64,000 nucleotides of DNA from Deltaproteobacteria bacterium (GTDB taxonomy: Bacteria > Desulfobacterota > Binatia > HRBIN30 > CADEER01): positions 1-64,000 of the forward strand of contig JAJCZJ010000055.1 of the NCBI GenBank assembly GCA_029262455.1, read 5' to 3'. The translations under genes and the position numbers were made by a program. Positions 1,967 to 48,742 of this stretch are shown here, piece after piece; the first letter of the stretch is position 1, and every line of letters starts with the position of its first letter. The notes beneath the pieces are model-generated. The model worked only from the letters and a program-made list of their open reading frames with translations, ran no database searches and was not told the DNA's origin.

Positions 1967-2254
1967 TCAGTCCGCGAAAAGCCGGTACATCGAATCGATT
2001 GACTCGGGACCATAGGCTACGACACCCACTGGCACGGCATAGTCGATGGCCTCCAGAATGCGGCCCGCAGCCACCGGGCTGAAGCCTCCACAGAGCTCGA
2101 TGAGTTGAATCCCTTCAGAGACCATCTCGATCGCTGCCGCAACTCCGTCGGCGGCGTCGCACACGCCGACCACTTTCATCGAAAATTTGTCCGTTCCCTG
2201 CCACTGGACGAACGCGTCGCCCGTCACGATGAAACCAAACTTGCTCAACGCCAC
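1967..2254 (-). CDS. DUF6506 family protein
   Basis: This is a small protein of 95 residues. It contains a segment of the pattern MVSEGIQLIELCGGFSP followed by VPVGVVAYGPES, which is how I recall the DUF6506 family of uncharacterised soluble alpha/beta proteins. The GTG start is chosen because AGGGAGAG lies a few bases upstream and the product then begins with the conserved KFGFIVTG strand. An upstream ATG 36 codons earlier would add an unrelated-looking extension. The function is unknown, and no partner gene is adjacent because the intron lies on one side and repeat DNA on the other. Confidence 0.65.
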   Translation of the reverse strand: MALSKFGFIVTGDAFVQWQGTDKFSMKVVGVCDAADGVAAAIEMVSEGIQLIELCGGFSPVAAGRILEAIDYAVPVGVVAYGPESIDSMYRLFAD

Positions 2255-2369
2255 CTTGCTCTCCCTTTCGGTCTGTCTCTCAGAAGGACACCGATATGCC
2301 GCGAGAACGTCTAGAACAAGGCCAAGAAACGAACGTTGGAAAACGAGGAGGAGACGGGACAACAGTTGA

Positions 2370-2610
2370 AGGTCACGACCGCAGATATCCGGTCATCCAC
2401 CCGAAATCCTGAAGCCTCTTCGTGTCTTAGTGTCTTCGTGTTGAAATATCAGAACGAAAGCTCGCCGGAACCCGCAACTCTGCTTCTGAGGTACTGCCGC
2501 CAATCTTCAAGTGTCGGCCACGACTCTGGTTGATGAATTCCGACCCTGTTTGGCAGCCTGATCCAGGTTGCGTCCTCGTGGAACACCTTTCTTACACAAA
2601 GACACGTCAC
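2370..2610 (+). repeat. Dispersed ~250 bp repeat, diverged copy (copy A)
   Basis: This stretch aligns along its length with the copies at 9132 and 11116. Shared blocks are CAGATATC, a CTTCGTGTCT-type tract, GAACGAAAGCTCG, CGCAACTC.GCT.CTGAGGT, GTTTGGCA and a terminal ACACAAAGACACG tract. It is clearly more diverged than the other two are from each other. The CTTCGTGTC tract on the left and the AAAGACACG tract on the right are reverse complements in the better-preserved copies. No gene is supported between the DUF6506 gene and the small membrane protein apart from this element. Confidence 0.75.
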
Positions 2611-2697
2611 TGATTCGGAAGTGCTGGATCAGCTGGATTCAGCGCGGCGCTTTCGCCTGCGCGTCGAGTGGATTACGCGACGCCACCTTGCCGTATC

Positions 2698-2853
2698 TCA
2701 CAGCACCCAATCGAAGATTGGCGAGGCCCAATAGGCGAGGAAGGCGCCACTCGCGATCCACGGCCAGACGAAGACTCGCGGTTCGAAATCAGCTGCCAGA
2801 AAACACGTGGCATTGGACCAAACGATGATTGCAAAACCAGTAAAAAATTCCAT
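2698..2853 (-). CDS. 51-residue small membrane protein
   Basis: This open frame encodes a hydrophobic protein with two predicted membrane segments, about residues 4-20 (FTGFAIIVWSNATCFLAA) and 28-48 (VFVWPWIASGAFLAYWAS). A short polar turn, DFEPR, separates them. A strong ribosome-binding site (GGAAGGGGG) lies about nine bases before the ATG. It is too short to assign to a family. The ribosome site and clean hydrophobic pattern argue for a real gene; its position between repeat DNA and the kinase cluster gives no clue to function. The 267 bases between it and the kinase gene show nothing I can name. Confidence 0.5.
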   Translation of the reverse strand: MEFFTGFAIIVWSNATCFLAADFEPRVFVWPWIASGAFLAYWASPIFDWVL

Positions 2854-3120
2854 TCTTCAGACCCCCTTCCTGGTCGTAGCTCCAAGATCCATGCCACTTT
2901 GTGAGTGATTGCCACGGAGAGGTTTGGGGGCTGGGTGCAGGTGTTTTACACACAGCGGCGGGCAGACCTTGCAAACCAGGAGTACATCTTGCAGGCCCTG
3001 CGGCTATGCGAGCATCCTAAGCCGCGACGTCGGCCCGATATCCGCCGGCCCTGTATTGACTCGGGCAGTCGTACCTTGGCACGGACGCCGGATTTTTCTC
3101 CGACGCTACGCTCGAGGACC

Positions 3121-5208
3121 CTAGCGTCGCTGCTGGTCCAGGACTGCGCGCAATTCGTCGGCGCTGATCGGTTTGACCAAGTGGCTGTCGAAGCCGGCGC
3201 CCAGGGCGCGAGCTCTGTCTTCGGGATGTCCGTATCCCGTGACCGCGACTAAGGTCGCTCCCTGCTCCCCGATACGCTTGCGGTATTCTCGGGCGAATTC
3301 GTAGCCGTCGAGCCCCGGTAGGCCGATGTCGACCAAGATCAGATCCGGCTCGTAGGTCATCGCAAACTCCAGACCACTGAGTCCATCTGCCATCTCCGAG
3401 ACATCGTTGCCCCAGGCTTCCAGTAGAGCCCTCATCGCCATCCGTACGTCATCGTCGTCCTCGACGAGGAGAACCGATCTTCGCTTCTGGGCGGCGTCGG
3501 TCGTCGTCAGCGCCGGCGTGTCTGTCGAGCCGGGTTCTTGGATTCTCGGCAGACGTACTTCAAACTCGCTGCCGCGGTTGGAGCCCGCGCTCTTCGCCGC
3601 GACTCGACCCCCGTGCATCTCGACCACCTTCTTTACCAGGGTCAGGCCGATTCCGAGTCCGCCGCCGCCGCGGTCGATCTTCTGCGGCCCCTGCGAAAAC
3701 AAGTCGAAGGCCTTGGTCAGAAAGTCGGCCTGTAGCCCAACGCCGTCGTCGCGAATGCGCAACACCGCCTCGTCACCTTCCGCCTCCAGGGTCACCCAGA
3801 TTGACCCGTGCTCGGGGGTATACTTTACGGCGTTCTCCAGTAGATTCGTGGCAACTTGCTCGATCCGGACTGGATCCCCCGACACCCAAACCAGCTCCGT
3901 CGCGACTTCGATGTGTCGCTGCAGCCCCTCCAGGTTTCGAATCGTGTCTTCGACGCAGCCGGAGATGATGCTACCGAGCTCCACATCAGACCTCTTGATG
4001 ACGAACTGGCCGGAGCTTACCCGGGCTACATCGAGCAGATCGCTGACAATCGAGCGCAGGTGATCGCCTTGGCGCAGAATGATCCCGATCAGAGATTCGC
4101 TCGACTCCTGCCGGCCATTTTGGGCGCGCAGCCCCAATGCCGACGTGTTGATCGCCGCCAGGGGGTTGCGCAACTCGTGACCCAACATCGCAAGAAACTC
4201 GTCCTTGGCGCGATTCATGGCCTCGGCTTTGTATTGCGCCGCACGCGCCTCCTCGATCAACGCCTCGCGCTCGACTACGGCGGAGTGTCTCTCGATAGCA
4301 ATCTGCGCCAGACGCACGAAGTTCGCCATCCAGATCAGGTCGCCAGGGGAAGGCTCTTCTGCCAACTCTCCGTGGACGATCAGCACCGCCAAGGCCTGAT
4401 GCTGTGAGTCCAGGACCGGCGTCACCCAACAGCGACGCGCCGCTTCGGCCGGCTGGTCGCTGGCGATCCCCTTGAGCATCTCGTCGGAATCGAAATCCGC
4501 CACGACCTCGAGTTGACCTGCGGACGCGGCGCGCCATACAGGGCCCGCCTCTGGGCCGAGCTTGGTCCGGCGCACCCGCTTGGTGAACGCCGCCGGTATA
4601 TGCAGGCCAACCGGTTCAAGGATACGCCGTCGAACCAGATCGAGCGGCAGTATCACGGTCCGCACCGCGGGGCGGTCAGCGTCGGCGACTTTCACGATGG
4701 CACTCATGGCGGAAGGTAGAGTGGCACCATCGGCGATCGCACCAAGCAACGCCGTTTCGGCATCTTGAATCGCCTCGGTCTGCCGGCGCCGAGCGATTTC
4801 GCGCCCGAGCTGGTCGATCTTGCTATTGAGCACCGCGAAACTATTGGACGCGGTACTGTCTTCGGGTCGTTCGCATCGAAGCAGCATGAGCTTCTCACCC
4901 TGAACAAGATCCGGCGGGATGCGGCTAGCATACACACGACATTGCAGCGACGAGTCCTCCTCCTGTCGAAAACTGAGCCTGCCAGGTAGGGGGTCACCGG
5001 TACTAGCGGCGCGGCGCAAGAGTCGGTCGACGCTTGCCGCGGAGTCGATCACCAAAGAGTGGAGGGTCGCGCCGCGCGATTTGGTTTCGTCGAAGCCCAA
5101 AGTTTCGCGCATGACGTGTGTGCAGGCTCTGACGGTGCCCGCGCGGTCGACGATCAAAGCAGGACGATCGAGCGCGTTTGACAGGGCAAGTGCAGATTTG
5201 ACGTTCAC
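3121..5208 (-). CDS. Hybrid sensor histidine kinase with C-terminal receiver
   Basis: This is a cytoplasmic-type hybrid kinase of 695 residues with no membrane segments. The N-terminal ~100 residues look like a PAS domain (PALIVDRAGTVRA). A GAF-like sensor region spans roughly 150-310. HisKA follows, with phospho-accepting His344 in MLGHELRNPL. The ATPase has an N box NLLENA near 456, DDGVGL near 488 and GGGGLGIGL near 514. A receiver domain with Asp627 in ILVDIGLPG ends the protein. The GTG start overlaps the stop of the upstream gene by two bases plus spacing (TGAAGTG), which implies translational coupling. It is the last gene of a three-gene sensory cluster; no output gene is adjacent, so its phosphorelay target is unknown. 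Confidence 0.88.
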   Translation of the reverse strand: MNVKSALALSNALDRPALIVDRAGTVRACTHVMRETLGFDETKSRGATLHSLVIDSAASVDRLLRRAASTGDPLPGRLSFRQEEDSSLQCRVYASRIPPDLVQGEKLMLLRCERPEDSTASNSFAVLNSKIDQLGREIARRRQTEAIQDAETALLGAIADGATLPSAMSAIVKVADADRPAVRTVILPLDLVRRRILEPVGLHIPAAFTKRVRRTKLGPEAGPVWRAASAGQLEVVADFDSDEMLKGIASDQPAEAARRCWVTPVLDSQHQALAVLIVHGELAEEPSPGDLIWMANFVRLAQIAIERHSAVVEREALIEEARAAQYKAEAMNRAKDEFLAMLGHELRNPLAAINTSALGLRAQNGRQESSESLIGIILRQGDHLRSIVSDLLDVARVSSGQFVIKRSDVELGSIISGCVEDTIRNLEGLQRHIEVATELVWVSGDPVRIEQVATNLLENAVKYTPEHGSIWVTLEAEGDEAVLRIRDDGVGLQADFLTKAFDLFSQGPQKIDRGGGGLGIGLTLVKKVVEMHGGRVAAKSAGSNRGSEFEVRLPRIQEPGSTDTPALTTTDAAQKRRSVLLVEDDDDVRMAMRALLEAWGNDVSEMADGLSGLEFAMTYEPDLILVDIGLPGLDGYEFAREYRKRIGEQGATLVAVTGYGHPEDRARALGAGFDSHLVKPISADELRAVLDQQRR

Positions 5209-5787: not shown

Positions 5788-7075
5788 CTACGCGCGCTGG
5801 AGCGCGATCCGAATAACCGTGCCCGCCGGTTGCTCGTCGTCTGTCCAGATCCTCCCACCGTGAGCCTGAACGATCCCCTGCGCGAGGGACAGGCCAAGCT
5901 GTGCACCGCGCCAGGTTCGCGTCCCCTGCTTGAATAGATGATCTCGAATATCCGCAGGAATCCCTGCGCCATCGTCCCGCACGGTGAGGACCACCTCCCG
6001 CGCTCGCACATCTACTTCCACCGTGACGGTGGAGTTTCGCGGACAACTCTTCACCGAATTGCCAATCAGGTTCGAAAGCAGGTGCAGAATCCGCTGCTGA
6101 TCGGCGAGCACGAGGGCGTTTTCGTCAACCGCTTCCATCTCGAGCCGAATGCCTCGTTTCGCGGCGTCGGGTTCATGCGGTAGCCGCGAGTTCTCTCAAA
6201 ATACCTACGACGAACACAGATTCGAGCTCGAGGTGCAGGGCATCGGCGTGGATCGCCGCAAAATCGCAAAGGTCGTGAATCAACCGTTCGATGCGACTGG
6301 CAGAGCGTCGAATGTTGGCCGAGTTCTTCTGCTGCTGCTCTGACTCTGCTGTCTCCCCGATCAGCGCCGCCGACAAGCCGATCGCGTTGAGCGGACTCTT
6401 CAAGTCGTGCGAGACAACCGCCATGATCTGCTCGCGCGCCGCGACCTCGCGCTGATTCTGTTCAGATAAAGTCTCATTTTCGAGGGCCAGCGCGATACGC
6501 TGGCCAAAGTCTTCGGCGATGAGCCGAACTTCATCGTCGAACGGGTCGCGCGGCGCGGCTGACAAGAATACGATCGCACCGAGTCGTTGCGTCCGCCCCT
6601 GCAACGCGATCGCGAGGGCGGCGTTGAGCTGGCGATCGCGCGCCCAAGATCCCTCCGCTAGCGCCGTGAACTCGGTGAGCGTTTGCGCGTTGCCGCAAAC
6701 CACTTCGGTGATTCCTGTATCGCAGACGCGATGCACCGCCGGACTTGATCTGGGCTGACTTGCAAACCGTTCGATCTCCAATTCTTCGCCTTCGAGGCGT
6801 GCCCAGGCGATACGCTGTGGCGCATCGCCACGCAGGAGATGCAGGATCGCGCAATCCGCGATGGTCGGTACGGCAAGCCGTAAAGCCAAGTCCGGGATCG
6901 CCTGACGCTCGAGAGTCTGAGAGAGGGCAAGCCCCGTGTCCGCGAGGAACCGTAGGCGTGATTGCAGCTTACTCAATTGTTCGTCCTGGATCCGCAATTC
7001 CTCGAATGGATCATCCAAGTTCTTCTCAGTGAGGGCAACCCCGACGCGGCGGGAAAATCGTCTCGACGGAGGCAC
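5788..7075 (-). pseudogene. GAF histidine kinase, broken by a frameshift near 6183
   Basis: The N-terminal frame (about 300 residues) holds a GAF-like domain and a HisKA domain with the phospho-accepting His in AVVSHDLKSPLNAI. It stops at ELAATA, where the ATPase linker should begin. One base out of frame, the sequence continues as HEPDAAKRGIRLEMEA and then a complete HATPase domain (LLSNLIGNSVK, DDGAGIP, QLGLSLAQGIV, GGRIW). The two halves join smoothly if a single base is removed around 6183. This is a recent frameshift, a sequencing error or, less likely, programmed frameshifting. It would be first in the cluster with the MetOD1 protein (41 bp downstream) and the hybrid kinase. Confidence 0.8.
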
Positions 7076-41904: not shown

Positions 41905-42848
41905 CAGGCGGTCTGTCGTTGTTCGGTATCGCGCACGCGGCCGGCGAGCAGGTAGAGAGTGGCCATGCGGACCGCGACTCCGTTGGCAACTTGATCGAGG
42001 ATGGCGGAGCGATTGCTGTCGGCGACGTCGCTCGAGATCTCGACACCGCGGTTGATTGGCCCGGGATGCAAGACGACCGCGTCGGGCTTGGCGGCATCAA
42101 GAGCGGCCGAGGTGAGGCAGAAGTAGCGAGAATATTCGTCGAGGCTGGGAAGGAAATTAGCCCCCTGACGCTCGCGCTGCAGGCGGAGCATCATGACGAC
42201 ATCTGCGTCGCGGATTCCCTCTTCCAAGTTGTGGTGGAGGTCTCCCCAAGAAGCCAGTTGCCGAGGCACGAGAGTCGGTGGTCCAACAAGGCGCACCTCG
42301 GCACCGAGGGTGCGCAGCGCATACAAATTCGAGCGCGTCACGCGGCTGTGCAGGATATCCCCGACGATGGCGACCTTGAGTCCGGCGATACGTCCTTTCT
42401 CCTTGCGGATGGTCAGGAGATCGAGCAACGCCTGGGTTGGATGCTCGTGGGCACCGTCGCCGGCATTGATCACTGGACAGCCGACATGTCGGGCCAGGAA
42501 ATGGGGGGCCCCTGCCCTCGAATGGCGAACGACCAAGGCATCCGGACTCATGGCCGCAATATTTCGGGCTGTATCGAGTAGACTTTCGCCTTTGCTGACG
42601 CTGCTGGCGGAGGCATTCACGCTAACGAAATCGGCGCTCAGTCGCTTCGCTGCAATCTCGAACGAGGTGCGCGTTCTGGTGCTCGACTCGAAGAACAAAC
42701 TGACAACGGTCTTGCCGCGCAGGGTGGGAACTTTCTTGATCTCACGCTCGGCAATCTCGCGAAACGAATCTGCGGAATCGAGGAGAAACTGGATTTCCTC
42801 GGCTCCCATCCCGTCCAGGCCGAGCAGGTGGCGTCCGACGATGCTCAC
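41904..42848 (-). CDS. pyrB: Aspartate carbamoyltransferase catalytic subunit
   Basis: This protein of 314 residues condenses carbamoyl phosphate with aspartate. The carbamoyl phosphate motif is in [13 protein letters not shown] near 55, with HPTQALLD near 137 and [10 protein letters not shown] near 225. The GTG start overlaps the pyrR stop (GTGA), giving the expected N-terminus [15 protein letters not shown] longer reading from an upstream ATG would overlap pyrR by more and adds 13 basic residues. No pyrI regulatory subunit is present. Confidence 0.95.
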
Positions 42849-43399
42849 GGCACGGCTCGGGCGCGCACAATGGCGACTTCGTCGCACTCATCGTGATCGC
42901 GTATTTGCACACGCACACTCTCGCTCGGAGAGGTTGGAATGTTCTTGCCGACATAGTCCGGTCGGATCGGCAGCTCCCGGTGGCCGCGATCGATCAAGAC
43001 CGCCAGCTGAACCGAGCGTGGGCGGCCGAAGTCCATCAGCGCATCGAGAGCAGCGCGTACGGTGCGTCCGGTGTAGAGAACATCGTCGAAGAGGACAACG
43101 TGGCGATCGTCGATGGGAAAGTCGATCTCGGTGCCCTTGACCATCGGTGGATGCTCGGTCGAGCGGATGAGGTCGTCTCGGTAGAGAGTGATATCGATAA
43201 TGCCGAGTGGCGGATGCTTGTCTTCAATCTTTGCGATCTTCCCAGCCACGCGGGATGCGAAGTCGACACCGCGTGACCGGACTCCAATGAGAACCACATT
43301 GGAGATGCCGCGGTTGTGCTCCACCACTTCGTGGGCGATTCGAGCCAAGATTCGCTCGATTCCCTTGGCGTCGACGACGACCCTAGACTCGTCGCTCAT
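42845..43399 (-). CDS. pyrR: Bifunctional PyrR: pyr operon RNA-binding attenuator/uracil phosphoribosyltransferase
   Basis: This protein of 184 residues contains the PRPP-binding signature [21 protein letters not shown] near 105 and RSRGVDFA near 47. In other bacteria PyrR bound to UMP grips a hairpin in the pyr leader and promotes termination or blocks translation. A hairpin with a matching PyrR loop and a terminator lies directly upstream. It is the first gene of the pyrR-pyrB-pyrC-carA-carB operon, whose genes overlap or lie three bases apart. Confidence 0.95.
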
Positions 43400-43727: not shown

Positions 43728-45656
43728 ATGCATGCGGTCGAAACAGATTCGGAGGTAGCGGTGGGCACAGAGCCTGCCGTTTGTCTCGTCAAGGGCGGTG
43801 AGGTTCGCCGCCTTCGCGAGCAAGATACAGAGGCAAGTTCCTCAACGGAAGGCGCCATCCAATGGCGAACCGTTGCCGTCTCCGTCCTGCTGCTATGCGC
43901 GGCGTTGGCGGGCGCCGTCGGTATCGGCTCGGCGATCGAACTTTCGCCCCGCATGTGGAGTGCCGTAGCGGTTGGAATGAGCGCGACCGCGGGATTCGTA
44001 GCGCTCTTGCCACGCCTTCGGATCAAAGCGTTCTTCGTCGCCCTGGTGCGCGGCGTGGTCTTACTCACGGTTCTTTCGGGCTCTCTTCTCGCCGGCCTTT
44101 GGGTCGCGGTCACTCCAATCGGCGCGGAGCTGGCAACAGCCGCTCTTTGTGCCCCGACGCTCGTGGTGGCCCTTTTCTGGCCGCGTCACTGGGCGCTCTT
44201 GTTGATTGCGAGTGCACTGGTCGGAATCGGGGCTCTCCCCGGATTGGCGAGTGCGCCCCATGCGCCCACCTCGTACCTGGCAGCGGCGACGCTTCTGACC
44301 ACCCTGCTGGTCGGGATGGCCAACGGTACCCGAGGTCTCCGGCGCCCGGCCACCCCTGTGGCAAAGCCGGCGACGGCTGCTGACAATCGGCCCGCCGCCG
44401 CCGTGCTGCGACTGGCGCGTCACTTTGCCTCACACGAGCATGGCAAGATTGCCCAAGTCATCGTCAATGAAGTCTCAAAGGCCATCGGCGCGACTGGCGC
44501 GATCCTTCTATTGTGGGACGAGTCGGCTGAAGCCTACCGGGTCGAGGCAATGTCTGGCCCTGAAACCGCAGACCTTGCGGAGCTTCGTCAGGTGGAACTC
44601 AATCCGGACTGGATCGCACGCGCGAAACCGCGCAGTGGCGAGGCGATCGCGTCGGTCCTGCCGAACGCAATTCGCGAACCAGTGATTGGTTCGATCATTC
44701 GACGATGGCACGCCCGAGCGGTCCACGTGGTCCCATTTCGGCGCGGTGCGACGACGATCGGCGTTCTGCTCCTCGGGCGTTCGCGCGCAAAAGCCAGCTT
44801 GTCAGCAGACGACGGTCAGATTCTGTCGTCGATGGGGCCCCATGCTGCAGCAGCGCTTGCTCACGGCGCCCTGATTACGGATCTGGAGTCGGCGAATGCT
44901 CTCAAGGAAGAGTTCATGGCGACCATGTCGCACGAGCTGCGCACTCCGCTCAACGTAATCATCGGCTACACGGATATGCAGATCGAAGGAGCATTCGGCG
45001 ACCTCGACGAAGAGCACTCTTCGACCTTGCAAACGGTACGCGAACAAGCCGTCCAGCTGCTGGAATTGATTCAGGCGACGTTGGACATGAGTCGACTCGA
45101 GCGAGGCTTGGTGTCTCTCGACCCGGTGGACATTCAGGTTGCGCAACTGCTCTCCGATCTCCAGAAACGAATTCCCCCGGCGTGGCGCAAGCCGACGGTC
45201 AACCTCGACTGGAAGATCGACGAAGATCTACCGATGGTTCGCACAGACCCGTCAAAGTTGCAGATCTTGTTGCGAAACCTGATCCACAACGCGATGAAGT
45301 TCACCAACAACGGCCTGGTCCTGGTGTCGGCGGCACGCCATCCAACGAAAGATTGTGTTACGTTCTTGGTTCAGGACTCAGGCGTCGGGATCAAGGCCGA
45401 GCATCTCTCGCAGATCTTCGACATGTTCCGGCAGGCACCCGACGGAGAGAATCATGCAGGCGGCGTCGGCTTGGGCCTCTACATCGTAAAACGGCTGGCG
45501 GCTGCCCTGGGCGCGGAGATCGAAGTATCGAGCGCCCCCGGGCGTGGCGCGAGCTTCCGTATTCACTTGCCGTTAGAGCACACAGATTCGGAGTCGGGCA
45601 GCGCCGAGCCGGACGATACGGTGGCTGGCGATCAGGAAGTCAGCGAGGCGAGTTGA
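43728..45656 (+). CDS. Membrane sensor histidine kinase with GAF domain
   Basis: This protein has 642 residues. About six hydrophobic segments lie between residues 45 and 200, followed by a GAF-like domain at ~225-385 (AIGATGAILLLWDES, GVLLLGRSRAKASLS). HisKA has phospho-accepting His402 in ATMSHELRTPLNVIIGYTD. The ATPase domain is complete: NLIHNAMKFTNN, DSGVGIKAEH and GGVGLGLYIVKRLAAALGA. The ATG is used; a TTG 12 codons earlier is possible. A second kinase-like gene with similar HisKA region but no ATP site follows after 90 bp, so the two may work together. No response regulator is adjacent. Confidence 0.88.
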   Translation: MHAVETDSEVAVGTEPAVCLVKGGEVRRLREQDTEASSSTEGAIQWRTVAVSVLLLCAALAGAVGIGSAIELSPRMWSAVAVGMSATAGFVALLPRLRIKAFFVALVRGVVLLTVLSGSLLAGLWVAVTPIGAELATAALCAPTLVVALFWPRHWALLLIASALVGIGALPGLASAPHAPTSYLAAATLLTTLLVGMANGTRGLRRPATPVAKPATAADNRPAAAVLRLARHFASHEHGKIAQVIVNEVSKAIGATGAILLLWDESAEAYRVEAMSGPETADLAELRQVELNPDWIARAKPRSGEAIASVLPNAIREPVIGSIIRRWHARAVHVVPFRRGATTIGVLLLGRSRAKASLSADDGQILSSMGPHAAAALAHGALITDLESANALKEEFMATMSHELRTPLNVIIGYTDMQIEGAFGDLDEEHSSTLQTVREQAVQLLELIQATLDMSRLERGLVSLDPVDIQVAQLLSDLQKRIPPAWRKPTVNLDWKIDEDLPMVRTDPSKLQILLRNLIHNAMKFTNNGLVLVSAARHPTKDCVTFLVQDSGVGIKAEHLSQIFDMFRQAPDGENHAGGVGLGLYIVKRLAAALGAEIEVSSAPGRGASFRIHLPLEHTDSESGSAEPDDTVAGDQEVSEAS

Positions 45657-45746
45657 CGGGGCACAGAGTTCCGGGGTTGAGGTTCTGCTTCAAAAAAAGT
45701 TTTGTGAAGCCGATCGAGTGTGGTTGTTGTTGGGGTGGAGGCAGAC

Positions 45747-47276
45747 GTGAGCACGTCGAGTGATGGATTTGATCCGCGGCGCGTATTGATCGCTGAGTCG
45801 GAGTCGTCGGACGCAACCGCATTGCATGAGACGCTCGTCAAAGCGGGCTACGAATGCCGTGTCGCGCCCCTCAATGCGCGAGACATAGAACATCTGTTGA
45901 CAAAGTGGCCGGCGGAAATATTGATCGCCGTCGGCCAAACGGCTCGGGTCCTGGAAGACAGCGGCATTGCCCAAGTGCTCCGTCGCAAGCAAAGCGGGGT
46001 GCGGCGGATCTTGGCGTTGGTTGATGATTCGTCCGCTGGTCCGCCCGCCGGGTTCGACGAAGTGTGCGATGCCCATGCTCCAGCCAGAATCATCTTGGCG
46101 GTCGAGAGAGGACCTCGAGAAGACGCTCTATCCCTGGCCCGATCGTTGCTGCGCGGATTCGACTCGCAACGCATTTGTCGCCTGCTGGTCGATCATATGG
46201 TTGGGACGGTCTGCGCCGAATGGTGCGCCGTCTTGTATCCGCTGACCAAGAACAGCGCTCTCTCGGTGACGGCGAGCATCGGCCCAATCCCGCGATTCTT
46301 GCTGGAGTCTGTGGAGACCAGTGTTGGGGGGCTTGCTGCGGCACTCGGCTGGAGCGACGAACGCCCCCGTGTGGTGGTTTGCGAACAGTCCGAGTCGCAC
46401 AGCGGCAAGTTCATCCTTGGCGTCATGCTGGGCTGCGATCAGCAAGAGGACTCGCCGGAAATCAGAGGAATTCTCGTCGCTGGGGGTGGGCTGCTTTCGT
46501 GCGATCTCACCGGCGTCGGGGTGGTTGACCAGGTCGTCGCTCTCGCGGCCCCGGCGCTAACTTATTCTGGACGAGTCGAGGACTTGCGTATCGCCGATCG
46601 CACAAAGTCGGAGTTCGTGGCGACGATGTCTCACGAACTGCGAAACCCTTTGAGCGTGATTCTTGGGTACATTGACCTCTTGGTTCACGGAGACGTCGGC
46701 GCTGTCGGCGAAGAGCAACTGGAGGTGCTGCGCCGCGCTCATCGCAGTGCTGATTCGCTCCTCGATCTGATCAATGCGACTCTCGATGTGAGTCGTTTCG
46801 AAGTCGGTGACGCCGCTGGAAACGAGACCCAGGTCAACGTTGCCGATGTCTTGCGCGATCAAGTGGATCACGCAATCCGGTCGCACGCTGGTGAGGTTGG
46901 TCGAATTGAGCTGGCGCCGATTCCGCCCTTGACGCTTTACACCGACGCGCTCAAATTGCGTGTTGCCACCCGGCAAGTCCTCGACGCCGCCGCTGTGACG
47001 AACCGCGGCGAGGATCTACAGGTCACCGCCTGTGAGTTTGACGGCGGTATCGCGATCGAAGTCCTGCCTCTTGCAATGGGGCCGGGCCCGCGTGAAGCGC
47101 CGGTGATGGTCAGCCTACCGGAAGACGACACGTCCCTGGGAGTTCCATTCGCGCTCTTTGTCGGCAAGCGGCTGATCGAGATCTTGGGCGGGACCCTAGG
47201 GGTCTGGCGCACCGAGGATCCGGTGATGTTGGGCTTCAGGATGTGGATTCCGCCAACGAATGTCCCGGTCCACTAG
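45747..47276 (+). CDS. Histidine kinase-like protein with degenerate ATPase (pseudokinase)
   Basis: This protein has 509 residues. Residues ~10-125 have a receiver-like alternation (PRRVLIAESESSDATALHE) but no phospho-acceptor Asp at the expected strand end (ILIAVGQT). A GAF-like region spans ~140-275. HisKA is well preserved, with His296 in ATMSHELRNPLSVILGYID. The following domain has the size of HATPase, but the N box reads TRQVLDAAAV, the DxGxG loop reads EVLPLAMGPGP, and no G-rich lid is seen. The GTG start is supported by GGAGG upstream. It probably dimerises or docks through HisKA without phosphorylating. It is transcribed with the active kinase upstream. Confidence 0.75.
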   Translation: MSTSSDGFDPRRVLIAESESSDATALHETLVKAGYECRVAPLNARDIEHLLTKWPAEILIAVGQTARVLEDSGIAQVLRRKQSGVRRILALVDDSSAGPPAGFDEVCDAHAPARIILAVERGPREDALSLARSLLRGFDSQRICRLLVDHMVGTVCAEWCAVLYPLTKNSALSVTASIGPIPRFLLESVETSVGGLAAALGWSDERPRVVVCEQSESHSGKFILGVMLGCDQQEDSPEIRGILVAGGGLLSCDLTGVGVVDQVVALAAPALTYSGRVEDLRIADRTKSEFVATMSHELRNPLSVILGYIDLLVHGDVGAVGEEQLEVLRRAHRSADSLLDLINATLDVSRFEVGDAAGNETQVNVADVLRDQVDHAIRSHAGEVGRIELAPIPPLTLYTDALKLRVATRQVLDAAAVTNRGEDLQVTACEFDGGIAIEVLPLAMGPGPREAPVMVSLPEDDTSLGVPFALFVGKRLIEILGGTLGVWRTEDPVMLGFRMWIPPTNVPVH

Positions 47277-47278
47277 GA

Positions 47279-48742
47279 TTAGCCAGTAGGGGCCAAGACC
47301 TCGACGGAGAGCTGGCCGATGAGCGGCACTAGCTCGATGTGTTGATCTGGTTCACCCTGGACGAGTTTGATGTGCGTGGCGTCGGCCGGCATTTGGTTGA
47401 AGGCAGGATCAACGGAGACCCAGCCCTCACCCAGCCATACTTCGTTCCAGGCGTGATAGAGGAAGACTCCTTCAGAGTAGACGATGCCTGCCACGACTCG
47501 CGTCGGCAGTCCGGATGCACGGGCCAACCCCGCGTAGAGCACCGCATGTTCGTTGCAATCGCCAGCACCCATTTCCAGCACCTGTAGGGCATTGGGAATC
47601 GTCGCCACTGCGCGCTTCTCCAGGGTTGCGTAGACCCAGTGTCGGAGCCGCACAGCTCCGTTGTGTGCGTCCTTTTCACCTGCCATCACTCGTTCTGCGG
47701 CTGCAACGAGCTGCGGGTGATCGCTCTGCACAAAGGCTGTTGGGCTAAGCTCGCTGCGCCATTGCTCTCCGCGATAGGGAAGCGAATAGCTGCCGGCGGC
47801 GGCGCTATCTTCCCGCACGATGCGCAGTCGACCGTCCTTGAAGGTCTGGCGCGGGTCGGTCGGCAGCTGGAGCGAGCCAAGGCCGTCGATTGAGAGTTCC
47901 AGCTGCTCCAAACGGCGTGCGGACTTGATCGGCTGGTGCACGGGAATCGCGACGGCGTCCATGAGATCGACCAGAGAACCCTCACCCCACCCAATTTCGG
48001 TCGCCCGTTCCGGATCCTCTCGAACAGCGACCAGCCCCATAGGACCTTCTTCGCGCAGGACGACTCCGTTCTTGTCGAGCCAGACGGTTGTCTCAACGCC
48101 CCTGAACGATTCCAGCAACTTCCACGCTTCGGTCTTGCCGCTCAGTGTTTCCAGAGTTTCAAGGCCGACAGTTTGAATTTCGATCGTCTGGGCTGACATG
48201 GCGGCAGCGTCGAATACCGACGCCTCCAGTGTCTGACCTGCTCGCAGCCCGGCCGCGACCACCCGCGCACGTAGAGAGCTCGGCAAGTAGAGAGGTCCGT
48301 CGATAGGGTACTCGTGACGATTACTGTTGGCGCCCGTTTGCACGTCAATTTCTAACATCTTGTCACCGACTTCGCCGTTCACCTGGAACTGCCCGATGCC
48401 GCTATTGAGGCGCACCCGAAACGATTGCAACGCGAAGTCCGCATCTACGTTGGCCGTTGTGTGAGCGTGAACCGTTTGGTTCTGGTCCATCATGCGCAGG
48501 CGCAATACGGATCGATCTTCGACGCGGTAGCCGCCCCGGCTCGAGGCAAGTTCGAAGTGGGAATATCCCACCTTCTTGCCATTCATGTACAAACCCATCC
48601 AGCCGGTGTGCGCGTCGCCAACGATTTGCGGGAGCACATGGACATCGCCACGCTGTGCGGGCAATTCGGGACCGCGCCAGAGGATCGCCAGCAGGCTGAT
48701 CCAGACGCCGATCAGTGTAATCCGGAGTAGAGTTGAGGACAT
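47279..48742 (-). CDS. Membrane-anchored transglutaminase-like protein
   Basis: This protein of 487 residues starts at an ATG just before a single hydrophobic segment (LLRITLIGVWISLLAILW), which leaves most of the chain outside the cytoplasm. A ~270-residue beta-rich region (GYSHFELASS, GQFQVNGEVGDKML) precedes a transglutaminase-core domain. The catalytic triad is intact: Cys396 in GAGDCNEHAVLYAGLARA, His in YHAWNEVWL and Asp in VSVDPAFNQ. It may cross-link or cleave amide bonds at the cell surface. In-frame sequence upstream of this ATG lacks coding character. Confidence 0.8.
   Translation of the reverse strand: MSSTLLRITLIGVWISLLAILWRGPELPAQRGDVHVLPQIVGDAHTGWMGLYMNGKKVGYSHFELASSRGGYRVEDRSVLRLRMMDQNQTVHAHTTANVDADFALQSFRVRLNSGIGQFQVNGEVGDKMLEIDVQTGANSNRHEYPIDGPLYLPSSLRARVVAAGLRAGQTLEASVFDAAAMSAQTIEIQTVGLETLETLSGKTEAWKLLESFRGVETTVWLDKNGVVLREEGPMGLVAVREDPERATEIGWGEGSLVDLMDAVAIPVHQPIKSARRLEQLELSIDGLGSLQLPTDPRQTFKDGRLRIVREDSAAAGSYSLPYRGEQWRSELSPTAFVQSDHPQLVAAAERVMAGEKDAHNGAVRLRHWVYATLEKRAVATIPNALQVLEMGAGDCNEHAVLYAGLARASGLPTRVVAGIVYSEGVFLYHAWNEVWLGEGWVSVDPAFNQMPADATHIKLVQGEPDQHIELVPLIGQLSVEVLAPTG

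Follow-up and report, generated by a model that had tools for sequence, protein, structure and literature searches.

What does a histidine-kinase-like protein without a recognisable ATP site do beside an intact kinase, and by what route could it signal? This question is raised by two adjacent genes in the window, by which we mean the whole stretch of 64,000 nucleotides that was analysed (positions 1 to 64,000 of contig JAJCZJ010000055.1, assembly GCA_029262455.1, Deltaproteobacteria bacterium). The upstream gene (43728-45656, + strand; open reading frame and Pfam matches) encodes an active-type histidine kinase of 642 aa, here named HK, and the downstream gene (45747-47276, + strand) encodes a protein of 509 aa, here named psHK. 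As judged from its motifs, psHK is a real pseudo-histidine kinase that is paired with an active kinase, the loss of autophosphorylation being predicted from the missing ATP motifs. Such proteins are a recognised kind. In PMC12632262, a pseudo-histidine kinase is a histidine-kinase-derived protein that lacks one or more kinase functions, and it is treated as an established idea with reference to Collins and Childers.

All three Pfam matches of HK exceed the Pfam cut-offs (GAF_3 34 bits, HisKA 62.7 bits, HATPase_c 87.7 bits), and in this order they follow an N-terminal part that reads, by eye, as membrane-spanning. The phospho-accepting His402 (44931-44933, +) lies in MSHELRTP. The HATPase_c domain, placed at 45246-45578 (+) by a profile match in a genome-wide scan, contains the N box (RNLIHNAMKFT, 45273-45305, +), the G1 box (DSGVGI, 45375-45392, +), the F box (FDMFRQ, 45417-45434, +) and the G2 box (GGVGLGL, 45459-45479, +). 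HK thus has the features of a canonical HisKA kinase, an HATPase_c domain with N, G1, F and G2 boxes, and psHK does not. A sequence-only reading had described the upstream protein as an active kinase, and the three matches and four intact motifs bear this out.

The only Pfam match of psHK at E≤10 is HisKA (67 bits), which covers its DHp domain (46605-46802, +) and was matched in all four orthologues. Of the 72 HATPase_c places found genome-wide, one is in HK and none is in psHK. Instead, the alignment and a structure model delimit a degenerate CA domain, psCA, which has no HATPase_c match (46824-47249, +; model residues 369-510). When aligned with HK, the place of the N box in this domain (46971-47003) reads RQVLDAAAVTN, the place of the G2 box reads LGVPFAL, and the stretch corresponding to G1 is, like the lid, missing or shortened. 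The N, G1 and G2 motifs are absent from the alignment of all four psHK orthologues. Ordinary binding of ATP by a CA domain depends on the N and G boxes. Among 153 distinct kinase cores taken from the collected loci, a crude motif-pattern reading found all three ATP motifs missing in only 8, namely the four psHK and four cores of less than 200 aa; among the 146 cores of at least 200 aa, this crude pattern left only the four psHK without all three. The claim that the downstream protein had kept HisKA and lost the N, G1 and G2 boxes is therefore borne out by the 67-bit HisKA match and the missing HATPase_c match.

The phospho-acceptor of psHK (46632-46634, +; HExxN) had been numbered His296, which is correct given a start at GTG 45747, a codon preceded by a ribosome-binding-like GGAGG (45737-45741, +). 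A start at GTG 45720 gives 518 aa and His305; the psHK computations were run on this longer form, and model residues follow its numbering. This His and the Glu next to it are invariant in the four orthologues, as is nearly the whole helix-1 motif. The residue four positions after the His is Asn in three of them (HExxN) and Ser in the orthologue at locus L011 (HExxS). Ser occupies the HExx(T/N) place in 5 of the 144 cores read, four of which are not psHK, and so it is rare though not unique to L011. Strict conservation of such a His usually means that it carries phosphate or takes part in a phosphatase reaction, and the Glu that follows it is needed mainly for autophosphorylation. Since the ATP site appears to be lost and the phosphate-accepting His is kept, psHK probably signals through a partner rather than by its own use of ATP.

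The N-terminal half of psHK is less clear. It had been read as a receiver-like domain lacking the acceptor Asp, of which the second part stood, in that no such Asp was seen by eye at the acceptor place, and the modelled fold is indeed beta-alpha. This receiver- or flavodoxin-like domain (45780-46070, +; model residues 21-117; a weak assignment) gave no PF00072 match in the window or at locus L009, however, and it is not one of the genome's 55 receiver places. Its sequence matches are weak (part of an NtrC-type regulator at E 9.6e-4, CheY at E 0.14), and it is poorly conserved, being missing from one of the four orthologues (L011). A cobalamin-binding protein aligns with residues 18-131 in the VIA comparison (Z 14.6), and because this protein shares the general fold of a receiver, the fold leaves the receiver identity of the N-terminus unsettled. 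It is followed by a modelled GAF-like domain (46164-46484, +; model residues 149-255), which has no Pfam match.

The loss of three motifs could also mean that psHK is a functionless kinase gene, either decaying or misassembled, and its long stem in the tree (1.86) and a psCA identity of only 38% would suit this view. We consider it highly improbable and largely refuted. The psHK frame is open in all four assemblies at 36-40% identity, and HisKA is 80% identical, which upholds the earlier judgement that there is no simple decay. Mean pairwise identity among the four psHK is 30.0% in the GAF-like domain, 80.1% in HisKA, 37.6% in psCA and 20.8% in the receiver-like region (23.1% without L011, which has little of it). 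For HK in the same four genomes, the corresponding values are 60.7% (GAF), 94.4% (HisKA) and 83.0% (CA). The divergence of psHK is about 3.6 times that of HK in both HisKA and CA, and the CA:HisKA divergence ratio, without saturation correction, is about 3 in both proteins, which suggests that psCA is not drifting freely relative to its DHp domain. NG86 estimates of dN/dS were below 1 in all six psCA pairs (about 0.23-0.62), which is weak evidence because dS was at least 1 in all six; two HisKA pairs were fully saturated.

The pair was found in all four genomes of the genus (G000, G259, G260 and G261) among the 148 class genomes searched. Matches to psHK of at least 40% identity over residues 101-513 were likewise confined to four of the 148, the window included, when the best ten candidates or fewer were scored per genome. 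Some of the other class matches listed span about residues 135-515 at 27-34%, and two of these (L104 and L106) align with HK through the CA domain of HK. A scan of the genome collection with peptide patterns gave 76 psHK relatives, among which L009, L010 and L011 show 40-42% identity over most of the length; another, L028, spans residues 137-493 at 27% and is not among the cores without G1. A psCA profile found four places at 233 bits or more and the next at 57 bits; 87 of the 148 genomes have some match, the lower ones being taken as ordinary kinases. The N-terminal part of psHK had two matches in 198 phylum genomes, one of which is the window itself. No psHK was seen outside the genus in these searches, which distant copies could escape, and psHK thus appears to be genus-restricted as far as searched.

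In a quick tree of 146 of the 153 kinase cores (the seven shorter than 200 aa were left out), the four psHK orthologues form one clade (SH-aLRT 100). As all members of this single clade lack the motifs, the motif loss seems to be more than chance. The HK rows form a clade of their own (5 rows, SH-aLRT 89); ordered by their distance from psHK, they take ranks 44-66 of 146. This placement, in a tree whose backbone is weak (support below 80 on 72 of 143 inner branches), does not support an origin of psHK by tandem duplication of HK.

The mechanism that we propose tentatively, granting it a little less than an even chance, is that psHK has been selectively kept and works as the dead half of a mixed pair. 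As its CA domain is degenerate and could not serve for the use of ATP, psHK would act via the conserved HisKA domain. The adjacent, co-directional HK would phosphorylate His296 in trans, most likely within an HK-psHK heterodimer, and psHK would then hand the phosphoryl group to a response regulator other than that of HK, encoded elsewhere. The sequences themselves show the loss of the ATP motifs in all four orthologues, the strongly conserved DHp domain with its His and Glu, the pairing within the genus and some differing docking residues; joint expression, the heterodimer, trans-phosphorylation and the second regulator are all inferred. The sequence-only reading, which is supported in part, had suggested the heterodimer and the phosphorylation in trans. 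The mechanism is favoured by the occurrence of the pair in all four genomes of the genus, the short gap between the genes, a DHp identity of 80% against 38% in psCA and 30% in the GAF-like domain, and the lack of a receiver gene nearby. That one kinase core can act on another is known from RetS and GacS (PMC5992135). More speculatively, and rather doubtfully as yet, psHK could be a specificity adaptor, by which a single kinase that uses ATP would serve two response regulators, the second via a dead partner phosphorylated in trans in a mixed dimer. If true, psHK would provide a second, differently tuned docking surface, and the dead partner would set the pathway that the signal takes.

The residues that would contact such a regulator were compared at five docking sites named in the PDB titles of rewired HK853 structures and mapped onto the alignment. 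Comparing psHK with HK, these are Val or Ala against Val at 268, Gly in both at 271, Leu against Met at 275 (Leu in HK of the sister genus), Arg against Thr at 294, and Arg, His or Gln against Glu at 297 (His in HK of the sister genus). At 267, 291 and 298, which we presume to be docking sites of HK853 as well, they are Ser or Thr against Asn, Val against Thr, and Ser against Gln. Helix 2 is thus clearly different and helix 1 only partly so. These differences fit a separate regulator for psHK, though any two paralogues could show them.

Several observations weigh against the proposed trans-phosphorylation and second output. Two of the five named docking sites are the same or nearly so, one of the remaining sites varies within psHK, and differing docking residues are to be expected of any two paralogues. 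By eye, HK looks membrane-bound and psHK soluble. In the quick tree the two proteins are neither sisters nor close paralogues. Furthermore, psHK is absent from the corresponding locus of the one sister-genus genome (G262, locus L153), which indicates that HK does not need psHK; either HK is older than psHK at this place or psHK was lost in G262. The distance between HK and psHK in the tree, together with the docking residues that differ, leaves room for other readings.

For psHK, AlphaFold gave a mean pLDDT of 62.9 from the four orthologues alone, and of 82.8 (pTM 0.59) when 35 kinase segments were added. These segments come from ordinary kinases, so the second model relies on them; almost the same elements nevertheless appear in the model built on the four orthologues. 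The psHK monomer is modelled as a receiver- or flavodoxin-like domain, a GAF-like domain, for which the VIA rows are GAF and phytochrome chains over about residues 130-290, two long DHp helices, and an alpha/beta CA-like domain. No lid is seen, and a lower-confidence loop (about residues 451-476) lies where the lid and the adjoining helix would sit. With VIA-align 2 and the second model, the matches listed include RetS (7n0e; Z 17.8, rmsd 3.9, 189 aligned), KdpD (Z 17.1), DivL (16.8), GacS (16.5) and HK853 (16.5). As these values spread over only 1.3, RetS is not clearly set apart. In the Foldseek ranking for the first model, RetS and HK853 stand alongside LOV-kinase chimeras and a bacteriophytochrome, and the sequence profile ranking was GacS, RetS, HK853 and DivL.

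It is conceivable, if somewhat unlikely, that psHK acts as a brake like RetS, binding HK or a regulator and either inhibiting HK autophosphorylation or working as a transmitter phosphatase. The Asn four residues after the His (HExxN) would be the phosphatase residue; it is present in three of the four orthologues and replaced in L011 (HExxS). RetS chains score among the top matches to psHK both in sequence and in fold, and the RetS core has a degenerate HATPase domain, does not autophosphorylate, has phosphatase activity via HExxT and inhibits GacS autophosphorylation (PMC5992135). RetS possesses two receivers and psHK none, however, and the likeness is that of a shared kinase core, with similar scores for GacS and HK853, neither of which is a brake. 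We regard as unlikely that a psHK homodimer is a stand-alone histidine phosphotransferase of the Spo0B, ChpT or PhyT sort, which would shuttle phosphate between receivers with HK at most starting the relay. Here, psHK retains the DHp domain, the His and a CA-like fold in the monomer model, and precedents are found in Spo0B, ChpT and PhyT, the last of which is described as a phosphotransferase that derives from a kinase and whose ATPase domain is degenerate (PMC5898713). However, no receiver gene or hybrid receiver lies at the window locus, the only PF00072 match in the 86 kb contig being in the hybrid kinase at 3139-3474. Retention of the Glu in all four psHK, given its role in autophosphorylation, also argues against a phosphotransferase.

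Less likely still is an allosteric or localising scaffold, as in DivL or the ChrS pseudokinase, in which binding of psHK alters the state or place of HK and phosphorylation of the His is irrelevant. DivL, described as a pseudo-histidine kinase that is inactive, toggles CckA (PMC12189002), and the benefit of the ChrS pseudokinase is independent of its His (PMC9491836). DivL is also a close fold match to psHK (Z 16.8, against 17.8 for RetS). The invariant His and Glu of psHK, with nearly all of helix 1, suggest more than a scaffold, which would not need them; DivL itself has lost the His.

HK and psHK are co-directional between divergent pyrimidine genes and a convergent transglutaminase-like gene. 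The nearest of the former is pyrR (42845-43399, -; NCBIfam PyrR match), and the rest of this cluster, also divergent from HK, was named by eye as pyrB, pyrC and carA. The transglutaminase-like frame (47279-48700, -; start approximate) was named by eye and had no NCBIfam match. In the window and at L009 it is followed by genes named by eye as trmL-like, dtd-like, 3-PGDH-like and sugar-kinase-like, and the order at L010 and L011 agrees up to the contig ends, L010 being without the pyrimidine side. The gap between HK and psHK in the window is 90 nt (63 nt when counted to GTG 45720), and at L011 the GTG of psHK overlaps the stop codon of HK; the two genes are thus probably expressed together. Read-through or fusion was considered because both genes share a frame in the window and at L009, but their frames differ at L010 and L011, and the shared frame is therefore no conserved feature.

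The sister-genus locus L153 has the same gene order, with an HK that is 58% identical over 379 residues. The proposed pairing of the two kinases is thus conserved within the genus and does not extend to this sister genome, which has HK alone. No psHK homologue with intact ATP motifs, which, like an unconserved gene pairing, would have spoken against the sequence-only reading, was found at the five loci read (window, L009, L010, L011 and L153, the last having no psHK). As a separate observation, a frame that separates HK from the transglutaminase-like gene at L153 (G262:C7, 8337-8861, -) reads, by eye, as a small dual-specificity-type phosphatase (HCNAGLNR).

The window genome (7.34 Mb in 127 contigs) contains other degenerate kinases. 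Of its 64 HisKA places, seven lack an HATPase_c place in the next 900 bp downstream. They are psHK, a place at the end of a contig, a pair within a single protein whose weak HATPase_c lies upstream, and three others. Such kinases are therefore not unique to the present locus. At L162 (G000:C64:43500-49500, 2087-3520, +) a second degenerate kinase has the unusual order of a weak CA domain (HATPase_c at 33 bits, with G boxes that look altered by eye), a DHp domain with Tyr for His (SYELRTP), a GAF domain and another DHp domain (SHHSRIP and variants). It has orthologues at L172, L169, L173, L171, L174 and L175, with the same Tyr in all seven genomes aligned. Identity is at least 75% in four genomes of the genus and 44% in the sister genus; two others show about 50% over the first half and lack the GAF domain. 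This kinase surpasses psHK in conservation and may be the stranger of the two proteins. Neither a short HisKA protein at L164 (G000:C112, 1076-1924, -) nor a sigma-54-activator-like AAA and HisKA protein at L165 (G000:C117, 893-2626, +) has an HATPase_c match, and both end, by eye, in a degenerate CA-like tail. At L166 (G000:C80, 1471-2658, +), HisKA (just below cut-off) is followed by a receiver, with no CA domain and likewise no HATPase_c match. Lastly, a histidine kinase in the window (5794-7075, -) is apparently split over two frames, with HisKA (6248-6439) in a frame of about 300 aa and HATPase_c (5794-6102) in a separate frame of 135 aa, which may reflect a frameshift, an assembly error or two genes.

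A natural pseudo-histidine kinase with a kept His and a fixed active neighbour is a good case for studying how dead kinases signal, and the four diverged copies that share their losses, together with a sister locus that has the live kinase alone, form a ready comparison set. Among known systems, RetS of Pseudomonas aeruginosa resembles psHK in that HisKA is kept and the HATPase domain is degenerate with an intact H box; RetS also has a membrane sensor part, and its cores (7n0e and 6dk7) are the best or near-best matches to psHK. RetS does not autophosphorylate, acts on another histidine kinase, GacS, and has two receivers (PMC5992135), whereas psHK ends after psCA and has no Pfam receiver match. 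Unlike RetS, psHK is composed of receiver-like, GAF-like, DHp and psCA domains, and its gene adjoins that of an active HK. The psHK core also matches the fold of DivL (Z 16.8), which has a Tyr in place of the phospho-acceptor His, whereas psHK retains the His in all four orthologues. In Caulobacter, DivL is a pseudo-histidine kinase that modulates the kinase CckA (PMC12189002). PhyT, ChpT and Spo0B derive, like psHK, from kinases and have a His in the DHp domain beside an ATPase domain that has degenerated, but PhyT has HRxxN (PMC5898713) and psHK is of the HisKA type with HExxN or HExxS. The ChrS pseudokinase of Corynebacterium glutamicum has a dead CA domain and exists beside a paralogous system that is live; native ChrS forms heterodimers with HrrS, the heterodimer signal of truncated ChrS was not significant, and the variant is a laboratory-evolved frameshift (PMC9491836), whereas psHK is a conserved natural gene. 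By the features tested, psHK is neither a RetS, having no receivers, nor a DivL, having kept the His. It may work like RetS, DivL or PhyT, and it adds a member to the known pseudo-histidine kinases.

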